Assembly: GCA_025055765.1 (NCBI GenBank)
Contig: JANWWS010000013.1
Coordinates: 310,001 to 374,000, forward strand
Direction of reading: 5' to 3'
Length of the DNA: 64,000 nucleotides
DNA from: Leptospiraceae bacterium
GTDB lineage: Bacteria > Spirochaetota > Leptospiria > Turneriellales > Turneriellaceae
Below are positions 29,103 through 32,101 of this stretch, in pieces; position 1 is the stretch's first letter, and the number at the start of each line of letters is the position of its first letter. A program made the translations under genes and the position numbers. The notes below the pieces were generated by a model. The model was given only the letters and a program-made list of their open reading frames with translations. It was not told the origin of the DNA and did no database searches.

Positions 29103-29594
29103 ATGTCCACCGTTTATGATTTTTCGGCAAAATCCATAACCGGAGAGGAAATAAGTCTTGAACGTTATCGGGGCAAGGTACTACTTATTGTCAATGTTGC
29201 CAGCCGATGTGGATTTACCCCCCAATACAAAGGGCTAGAGAACATCTACGAAAAATACCGAGATCAGGGGTTTGAGATTTTAGGCTTTCCATGCAACCAA
29301 TTTGGCAATCAAGAACCTGGTAGTGAAGAAGAGATTAAGACTTTTTGTGAAACAAACTATAATGTAAAATTCCCTCTCTTTGCGAAAATAGAAGTCAATG
29401 GCGAAAATGCACATCCGCTTTATAAATTCTTAACCAAGGCTAAACCTGGAATTTTAGGCACGGAGGCCATTAAGTGGAACTTCACAAAGTTTCTCATTGA
29501 CCGTAAGGGCATTCCAGTAAAACGATATGCCCCCCAAGAGCGCCCAGAAGACCTAACAGAGGACATTGAAAAACTCTTAGCTACCAAAGAATGA
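29103..29594 (+). CDS. Glutathione peroxidase (cysteine type)
   Basis: 163 residues of the glutathione/thioredoxin peroxidase family. The peroxidatic Cys36 is in [11 protein letters not shown], with Gln and Trp partners in [13 protein letters not shown] and [15 protein letters not shown] cysteine rather than selenocysteine codon is used; such enzymes usually work with thioredoxin and reduce hydroperoxides. No signal peptide, so cytoplasmic. It is followed after six bases by the oligopeptidase gene and divergent from nuoC, with a palindrome between them. Confidence 0.93.
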
Positions 29595-29600
29595 AAATTC

Positions 29601-31298
29601 ATGAAATTCTCAGAGCTAACCTACTCTCGCCCTGACACGGAAAATTACAAAAAAGAATACCTCGCCCATCTTAAGGCTTTTGCCCAGGCTAAAACCTTTG
29701 CTCTGGCAGAAGGTGCTCTTGAAGAATTAAACAAACTACGCAACCACATGAGCACCCTCTCTACTCTAGCGCATATCCGATTTACGATTAATACGAAAGA
29801 TGATTTTTACCGTCAAGAACAAGAATTTTTTGACTCCCAAACCGCTCTCTTTGAGGAGCTCTCCCACAACTACTACCAAGTTTTGCTAGGCTCTCCCTTC
29901 TTATCTGATTTTGAAAAAAAATATGGAAAACAGCTCATTGACTATGCCCAATGTCACCTAAAAACTTTTTCACCACAAATTGCAGAGGACCTTAATCAAG
30001 AAAGTGAGCTTACCACCCAGTATACAAAACTTATCGCTCAAGCAGAGATCCACCTAGACGGCAAAACACTAAATTTAAGTCAATTGGCACCATACCTTAC
30101 CCGACCCGAGAGAGAGGTGCGGCTAAGAGCCCAACAAGCTAAATACGCTTTTTTTGAAAAAAACCAAGAAGAGCTCGACGACATCTATCACCGCCTTGTG
30201 CAGCTGCGCCACCAAATGGCTTTAAAATTGGGCTACCCCAACTTTGTGCCATTAGGTTATGCTCGCATGGGCCGCACTGCCTACAACCCAGAGCATGTGG
30301 CTGCGTTTCGAAACTATATTAAAGAGTCCTTTCTGCCCCTATGTCAAGAGCTCATTGAGGAGCAGAAAAAAAGACTTTGCCTTGGGGAAGAGTTCGCCTT
30401 TTATGATGAGCCCCTTAAATTTCCAGAGGGAAATCCCCAGCCACGCAAAAATAAAGATGAGCTGGTAGAAATAGCACGTAAAATGTATAGCGAGCTTAGT
30501 GAGCCAACAAAAATATTTATAGAGCTTCTTTTTGATGGGGAGTTTGTAGATCTCGAGTCTAGAGCCGGCAAAGCAGGGGGAGGCTACTGCACTTACTTAC
30601 CCGACTACCAGATGCCCTTTATTTTTGCCAACTTTAATGGCACCCAATACGATGTCGAAGTCTTAACCCATGAGGCGGGACATGCCTTTCAAATGTACGA
30701 AAGCCGTCACTTTAAGCTTCCTGAGTACCTTAGCCCAACTCTGGAGGCCTGTGAAATACACTCCATGTCCATGGAGTTTCTTACCTACCCCTGGATGGAA
30801 CTTTTTTTTGATAAAGAAGCAGAGAAGTTTCGCTTAAGCCATCTCTCCGATGCCATCACCTTCTTGCCATACGCTGCCCTTGTGGACGAGTTCCAACATG
30901 TCGTGTATGAAAACCCAGAATTTTCTCCCCAACAGCGCAAGAAAATGTACCGTGAGCTTGAGAAGATATACCTCCCCCATCGCAACTACGCTAGCTTCCG
31001 TTTTCCCGAAGAAGGAGGCTACTGGCAACAGCAATCCCATATTTACACCTCTCCCTTTTATTATATCGACTATGCCCTAGCACAAATCTGTGCCCTACAG
31101 TTTTACCTCTGGGCAGAAACTAATAGAGATAGCTCTTGGGAAGCCTACCTTAGGGTTTGTCGTGCAGGAGGGTCCCTGAACTTCCCCGAAATTGTCGCTT
31201 TAGGAAACCTAGAATCACCCTTTAATGCCCCCCGGGAACTGCCCCAAAAGCTATTTTACAAGCTAAGGGCTTATAAAAATACCATCCCCACGCCGTAG
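29601..31298 (+). CDS. M3-family oligoendopeptidase (PepF-like)
   Basis: 565-residue cytoplasmic zinc peptidase that cleaves short peptides. The active site HEAGH (His357-Glu358, His361) is intact, with the third zinc glutamate expected in the following EACEIHSMSMEF. The C-terminal YIDYALAQICALQFYLWA is typical of the PepF branch. It begins six bases after the peroxidase. The stop codon TAG (31296-31298) shares its last base with the first base of tRNA-Ser, so processing of a joint transcript would cut inside the stop codon. Confidence 0.92.
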   Translation: MKFSELTYSRPDTENYKKEYLAHLKAFAQAKTFALAEGALEELNKLRNHMSTLSTLAHIRFTINTKDDFYRQEQEFFDSQTALFEELSHNYYQVLLGSPFLSDFEKKYGKQLIDYAQCHLKTFSPQIAEDLNQESELTTQYTKLIAQAEIHLDGKTLNLSQLAPYLTRPEREVRLRAQQAKYAFFEKNQEELDDIYHRLVQLRHQMALKLGYPNFVPLGYARMGRTAYNPEHVAAFRNYIKESFLPLCQELIEEQKKRLCLGEEFAFYDEPLKFPEGNPQPRKNKDELVEIARKMYSELSEPTKIFIELLFDGEFVDLESRAGKAGGGYCTYLPDYQMPFIFANFNGTQYDVEVLTHEAGHAFQMYESRHFKLPEYLSPTLEACEIHSMSMEFLTYPWMELFFDKEAEKFRLSHLSDAITFLPYAALVDEFQHVVYENPEFSPQQRKKMYRELEKIYLPHRNYASFRFPEEGGYWQQQSHIYTSPFYYIDYALAQICALQFYLWAETNRDSSWEAYLRVCRAGGSLNFPEIVALGNLESPFNAPRELPQKLFYKLRAYKNTIPTP

Positions 31299-31384
31299 GA
31301 GAGATGGCCGAGTGGCTGAAGGCACAGCACTGGAAATGCTGTATACAGGCAACTGTATCGAGGGTTCGAATCCCTCTCTCTCCG
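31298..31384 (+). tRNA. tRNA-Ser (GGA anticodon)
   Basis: 87 bases with a long variable arm, as expected for serine. Acceptor GGAGAGA pairs fully with TCTCTCC; anticodon stem CAGCA/TGCTG with loop CTGGAAA gives GGA (reads UCC); variable stem ATACAG...CTGTAT; T-arm GAGGG-TTCGAAT-CCCTC; discriminator G. CCA is not encoded. Base 1 is the last base of the pepF stop, and pgsA ends three bases beyond on the other strand. Confidence 0.96.
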
Positions 31385-31387
31385 CAG

Positions 31388-32101
31388 CTATTCCCTCTGA
31401 ATAATCCGATATGGTGGCAAAAGCACTTGGTAGTTGGTAAAAAGGTAGCGCAGACCTGAAATAACCGTAATAATGGTTGTAAGGAGCATTAGAAAATACG
31501 GGATAGACTCTGCAAATACCTTTTTTTTCTCCCGCGGAGTGTAGTCTGGGTTTTTTAATATTTTCAAACCGCGCGCGAGAAGCTCTGATGCTATCTGGAT
31601 ATTTTTCTTACCACGTCGATGACCCTCTTCAAATGTCTGCTGGATATCTATTTGAAAAGAGCGTACAAAAAATATCATTAAAATTAAAATGATGGAGGTC
31701 ATCTGAAAAGCTGTCTTGGCCTTCGCAAGCCGAGTGGTGCGGATTTCCATACCCTTGCGAATAGCCAGGTATCGCATGAGGGTTACGAGCATGTCCCGGG
31801 CAATAATGGTCAGCACCATCCAAAGGGGAATTTGCGGGTCAAGGTAAAGAAAAACAAGCAGAGTTGCCAAGACTAGTGCCTTATCAGCTAAGGGGTCCAT
31901 AAATCGCCCAAAGGCGGTATCTTGTTTCCATTTGCGCGCCAAATACCCATCAAGAAAGTCGGTTATGGAGGCCACGACAAAGACGACTAACGCCATTAAC
32001 CGGTAAAAGGGCACTTTGGTGGTTATACAGTAGAGGAAAACCGGCACCAAAAGTATGCGGATGAGAGTTAGGAAATTGGGTATGTTCCAAATGCTCGCCA
32101 T
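31388..32101 (-). CDS. pgsA: CDP-diacylglycerol-glycerol-3-phosphate phosphatidyltransferase
   Basis: Makes phosphatidylglycerol phosphate in the inner membrane. The CDP-alcohol phosphotransferase signature is complete: Asp48-x2-Asp51-Gly-x2-Ala-Arg56-x8-Gly65-x3-Asp69-x3-Asp73. Several hydrophobic helices. 237 residues against about 180-190 usually; the excess is a charged insert of roughly 50 residues (from QIDIQQTFEEG to REKKKVFAE) between late helices. PgsA is the likeliest family member, but the insert leaves another alcohol substrate possible. Last gene of the TPR-barrel-lipoprotein run. Confidence 0.85.
   Translation of the reverse strand: MASIWNIPNFLTLIRILLVPVFLYCITTKVPFYRLMALVVFVVASITDFLDGYLARKWKQDTAFGRFMDPLADKALVLATLLVFLYLDPQIPLWMVLTIIARDMLVTLMRYLAIRKGMEIRTTRLAKAKTAFQMTSIILILMIFFVRSFQIDIQQTFEEGHRRGKKNIQIASELLARGLKILKNPDYTPREKKKVFAESIPYFLMLLTTIITVISGLRYLFTNYQVLLPPYRIIQRE

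Follow-up and report, generated by a model that had tools for sequence, protein, structure and literature searches.

What becomes of a message whose stop codon is shared with the tRNA gene that follows it? This question is raised by a 64,000-nucleotide stretch (the window; contig JANWWS010000013.1, positions 310,001 to 374,000) of a Leptospiraceae bacterium placed in the family Turneriellaceae, in which a gene for an M3 family oligoendopeptidase (the M3 gene) runs into the gene for tRNA-Ser(GGA) (Table 1). Read directly from the sequence, the last codons of the M3 open reading frame (ORF) are CCG TAG, and G31298 is both the third base of the stop codon and base 1 of the tRNA. The same tRNA start was called by ARAGORN (31298-31385) and by Rfam RF00005 (31298-31384, 61.9 bits). 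Every base of GGAGAGA (31298-31304) is paired in the acceptor stem with TCTCTCC (31377-31383), the discriminator is G31384, and no CCA is encoded, the bases that follow being C31385, A31386, and G31387. Since T31305 is U8 in its expected spot, the 5′ boundary is firm. A cloverleaf with a GGA anticodon is present, and of the 37 tRNAs detected genome-wide this one alone has that anticodon. The one-base overlap is real in this genome. An earlier interpretation (the sequence-only reading) had already put tRNA base 1 on the last base of the stop codon, with a perfect acceptor stem and a firm boundary, and was right on these points.

The same reading called the gene pepF. The protein passes TIGR02289 'M3_not_pepF' (596.9 bits; curated cut-off, 442.35) and falls far below the cut-off of the pepF profile TIGR00181 (81.5 bits; curated cut-off, 490.55), which rules out PepF as the name of the peptidase.

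The frequency of such overlaps was surveyed for 164 tRNAs from five genomes of the family. A one-base overlap between the TAG of a homology-supported gene and G1 of a tRNA occurred twice, here and at tRNA-Leu(CAA) of the relative G004. The survey took in 30 tRNAs of G006, where 33 matches exist and three regions were left out. Neither chance ORFs stopping on the TAG at tRNA positions 8 to 10 nor other ORFs, of 240 to 500 bases, reaching into a tRNA were counted as genes, with no homology support sought for either kind. A gap-0 tRNA-Leu(TAA) in G005 was dropped, as it lies within a tRNA array and its upstream ORF has no sign of being a gene. For a tRNA starting with G, a one-base overlap can form TAG and no other stop. 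The overlap is rare, yet not beyond what tight packing of genes and tRNAs would produce.

If the two genes share a transcript, the geometry proposed in the sequence-only reading holds: RNase P cleavage at the mature 5′ end would fall within the stop codon and leave a message ending in ...CCG UA. An overlap of one base leaves no space in which a terminator could separate gene and tRNA. Because ending between the stop and the tRNA is impossible, M3 transcripts would run into the tRNA and carry at least part of it. Near the locus, 5 intrinsic terminators were counted versus 3.8 expected in shuffles, and none was used. While it terminates at the TAG, a ribosome is expected to sit over the 5′ acceptor strand, which would force folding and RNase P cleavage to take place either before termination or after it. 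Where the tRNA folds ahead of the ribosomes, RNase P would cut, and some nonstop M3 messages of this origin are plausible. They would be handled at low cost by tmRNA or by A-tailing to UAA. The genome encodes a tmRNA (158.4 bits; cut-off, 47) and, besides a CCA-adding-like protein, a PcnB-family protein (TIGR01942), a predicted poly(A) polymerase that scores barely above its cut-off (308.3 versus 305.65 bits). Promoter activity, read-through, cleavage, and rescue are what we infer from the sequence.

For the supply of the tRNA itself, a second source has to be considered. A -35-like box was defined as TT[GT]AC[ACG] starting 33 to 50 bases upstream, and a tRNA standing alone or first in an array was taken as a lead tRNA. 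The box precedes 18 of the 26 lead tRNAs of this genome, tRNA-Ser(GGA) included (17/25 others); the background is 3.2% for random stretches of the window and 5.5% for coding ones. Lower shares of lead tRNAs carry it in the relatives (11/22 in G002, 9/22 in G004, 9/19 in G006, and 2/30 in G005). tRNA-Ser(GGA) belongs to this class, its TTTACA standing at -43. Before the tRNA-Ser(GGA) genes of G015, G014, and G004, the box reads TTTACG or TTTACA and starts at -43, -41, and -45, respectively. Because the TTTACA box matches that of 17 other lead tRNAs and of tRNA-Ser(GGA) in these three relatives, tRNA-Ser(GGA) is probably transcribed from a promoter of its own, situated within the end of the M3 gene.

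Several results weigh against such a promoter. In G005, the fourth relative checked, no box was found before tRNA-Ser(GGA). A two-box model trained on the tRNAs of the genome scores the site no better than 39% of random stretches. The -10 of this model drifted, so the -35-like box was used by itself, and this box-only test was picked after the upstream sequences had been inspected. In a generic sigma-70 scan, no promoter was called immediately upstream of tRNA-Ser, the distance from TATAAA to TTTACA is only 11 bases, and neither the two-box model nor the scan gives a convincing -10. Thus, of the promoter inside the peptidase gene that the sequence-only reading had allowed for as the opposite case, the -35-like box was found, whereas the two-box model and the sigma-70 scan were negative. 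With its own promoter, most tRNA-Ser would be made free of any nonstop cost, and one nonstop mRNA for each tRNA is therefore unlikely. The suggestion that every tRNA-Ser costs a nonstop mRNA was not supported. As for rescue by tmRNA, a tmRNA is encoded, but the dependence of the tRNA on M3 transcripts that would call for it found no support.

Conservation points in the same direction. No tRNA was found in any of 19 M3 loci of relatives (four and fifteen from two relative sets, with the locus itself excluded and several loci cut by contig ends), and so the same overlap, which had been suggested as something to look for in relatives, is not kept among them. The closest relative's M3 protein, from G004, is 58% identical, and the protein described here extends about six residues past the C terminus of that homologue in an alignment from which rows L063-L065, taken from the wrong strand, were excluded. 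The simplest history would be read-through after loss of an older stop, with the next stop lying at the tRNA edge. A selected coupling of M3 and tRNA-Ser, which would tie tRNA processing to peptidase output as the sequence-only reading supposed, is unlikely, because the pairing is absent from the relatives' M3 loci and the C terminus resembles read-through. On the tRNA side, 19 further distinct tRNA-Ser(GGA) genes were compared. One of them (L039) is also preceded by TA, and no long ORF ending at that TA was found. An early pattern search for tRNA-Ser(GGA) in relatives matched the present gene alone, the pattern being too strict. The tRNA-Ser(GGA) of this genome is 88% identical to that of G015, from another family of the order, and less similar to those of its own family (71% for G004); either a retained old form or an acquired copy would account for this closeness.

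Tight junctions are found elsewhere in the genome, where three further tRNAs abut an upstream gene. tRNA-Gln follows an ispE-like gene (GHMP kinase domain) with a gap of 0 by ARAGORN, or 1 if the canonical first pair is the start; tRNA-Gly(TCC) lies one base after a 388-amino-acid ORF that matches no Pfam family; and tRNA-Leu(CAA) lies three bases after a hotdog thioesterase gene. The box is absent before all three, in contrast to tRNA-Ser(GGA). In G004, the final G of the TAG of the orthologous thioesterase gene is base 1 of tRNA-Leu(CAA) (L151:1066-1566, and at that place in L180), with no -35-like box upstream. Across the class and phylum, 44 strong thioesterase orthologs were compared, and 23 have tRNA-Leu(CAA) downstream on the same strand (L179-L208, L218-L231); the distance is at most 100 bases in 22 of these and at most 14 in 13, and one pair overlaps. 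At L188, taken to be from the cultured species Turneriella parva, the thioesterase gene and tRNA-Leu(CAA) are 58 bases apart. The box was found in 2 of the 22 pairs examined, in both cases as part of the thioesterase gene's 3′ end. This pair is an old mRNA-tRNA linkage without an evident promoter, and it is a better candidate than M3/tRNA-Ser for a tRNA cut from an mRNA. Because the upstream genes and the tRNAs differ, the two one-base overlaps are of independent origin. Recurrent packing is expected to give separate overlaps, and the one in G004 fits. In this family, some tRNA genes are as tight on protein genes as in animal mitochondria.

Related arrangements are known. According to Mukai 2021 (PMC8124441), selC (tRNA-Sec) is nested in or overlaps the selB ORF, and processing is proposed to yield a nonstop mRNA, the tRNA and the full-length protein being alternatives. 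As at the M3 locus, a same-strand tRNA overlaps the 3′ end of a bacterial ORF. However, in the selB/selC cases described there, the whole or half of the tRNA lies in the ORF, the arrangement occurs in many species, and the genes are functionally linked, whereas here one base is shared in one genome and no link is apparent between a peptidase and tRNA-Ser. The nonstop-mRNA idea has thus already been proposed for tRNA-Sec in selB, the M3 locus being a variant in which unrelated genes, one of them for a canonical tRNA, overlap by one base. In animal mitochondria, as in the cutting proposed for M3, tRNA excision leaves an mRNA without a stop; human MT-ND1 (flanking TRNI), as described in PMC9674279, has no stop of its own, needs A-tailing, and is completed in frame by the flanking tRNA. 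There, excision is relied on and polyadenylation completes the stop, whereas for M3 both steps are hypothetical and tRNA-Ser is probably made from a promoter of its own. No publication was found that describes, for bacteria, a downstream tRNA starting on the final base of a stop codon, in a search that was thin on subscription journals, which is a weak sign of novelty. Mohanty and Kushner, in 2008, reportedly dealt with the Escherichia coli secG-leuU mRNA-tRNA co-transcript, in a paper whose title concerns terminators and RNase P. This case resembles the one proposed for M3 in that a tRNA lies downstream of a protein gene in one transcript processed by RNase P. The title of that paper says nothing of a shared stop codon, such as M3/tRNA-Ser has.

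Overall, a neutral accident is the most likely account of the locus, in a family where gene-tRNA junctions are tight at several places. In the explanation that we favor, and consider probable, the one-base overlap arose by chance through stop-codon loss and spacer erosion, without a selected regulatory link: an older M3 stop about six codons upstream would have been lost, the gene would now run to the final stop ahead of the tRNA body, and most tRNA-Ser(GGA) would come from its own promoter, now within the 3′ end of the M3 gene. It is unlikely that RNase P releases most of the tRNA from M3 transcripts, an arrangement in which tRNA production would be paid for in nonstop M3 mRNAs and linked to M3 output. 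The missing room for a terminator, the presence of tmRNA, and the promoter models, which give nothing convincing at the site, would all fit such coupling, and the tight junctions without a box elsewhere in the genome make the cutting of tRNAs from mRNAs plausible. However, a candidate -35 box stands where expected and is common to tRNA-Ser(GGA) of three of the four relatives, the pairing is absent from the M3 loci of 19 relatives, and an abundant stable tRNA drawn from a peptidase message would require very high M3 transcription.

Release of the tRNA could also be costless, if RNase P trims the M3 message to ...UA and A-tailing rebuilds UAA, leaving the message translatable as in mitochondria. 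When the shared base is a G, cleavage always leaves UA and a single added A would restore the stop, in G004 as well as here; a PcnB-family protein is encoded besides the CCA-adding-like one, and human MT-ND1 offers a precedent. Nevertheless, the PcnB score is just above its cut-off and bacterial A-tails promote decay, and we regard this explanation as highly unlikely. The same low probability applies to its extension to the whole family, in which tRNAs would serve as mRNA punctuation in mitochondrial style, with tRNAs that abut same-strand genes on both sides excised by RNase P and 3′ processing, upstream UA completed to UAA by A-tailing, and downstream messages left leaderless, M3/tRNA-Ser and the G004 thioesterase/tRNA-Leu being two independent cases. 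An assembly or sequencing error, with the true M3 stop lying earlier and the overlap an artifact of a metagenome-type assembly, would be consistent with a genome in 50 contigs (2.51 Mb) and with the earlier end of the closest relative's M3 protein, but the ORF and the tRNA are both intact and the same arrangement occurs independently in G004, and we consider an error very improbable.

If M3-type messages are truly cut inside the stop codon, the genome itself would encode a source of nonstop mRNA, by way of a canonical bacterial tRNA, and would offer a test of whether bacterial A-tailing rebuilds a stop codon. If they are not cut, the locus shows how stop loss and spacer erosion can put a stop codon on the edge of a tRNA with no effect. 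In both cases, the tightly packed gene-tRNA-gene junctions in the family suit the measurement of competition between termination and RNase P.

Table 1. Features at the M3/tRNA-Ser(GGA) locus, in window coordinates
Feature	Position	Strand	Basis and remarks
Glutathione peroxidase-family gene	29103..29594	+	ORF; GSHPx PF00255, 168.2 bits; 6 bases before M3 gene
M3 family oligoendopeptidase gene, TIGR02289	29601..31298	+	ORF, profile matches
Candidate -35 box TTTACA, inside M3 gene	31255..31260	+	43 bases upstream of tRNA base 1
TATAAA, -10-like, doubtful	31272..31277	+	Read in sequence; no promoter called by generic scan
C-terminal extension of six codons (NTIPTP) relative to the closest relative	31278..31295	+	Alignment
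TAG stop of M3 gene	31296..31298	+	ORF and sequence; G is tRNA base 1
tRNA-Ser(GGA)	31298..31384	+	ARAGORN, Rfam RF00005
pgsA, convergent	31388..32101	-	ORF; TIGR00560, 144.3 bits (cut-off, 109.1)

The glutathione peroxidase-family gene is a possible operon partner of the M3 gene. On the other side, the pgsA ORF ends at 31388, which leaves three bases between it and the tRNA, so that tRNA-Ser(GGA) is squeezed between the M3 gene and pgsA with nearly no spacer.

Two of the other junctions are also tight on their downstream side. At L024:333-2165 (C41) of this genome, the 388-amino-acid ORF is followed after 1 base by tRNA-Gly(TCC) and then, after 0 bases, by the ATG of a riboflavin-synthase-like ORF (MFTGLIEETG); 3′ processing of this tRNA would give a leaderless riboflavin-synthase-like message. 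The spacers after tRNA-Gly(TCC) in G002, G006, and G004 are 3, 4, and 12 bases. At L082:687-2563 (C37), also of this genome, the ispE-like gene, tRNA-Gln(TTG), and a nucleotidyltransferase (GlmU-like) gene are co-directional, with spacers of 0 to 1 and 15 bases.
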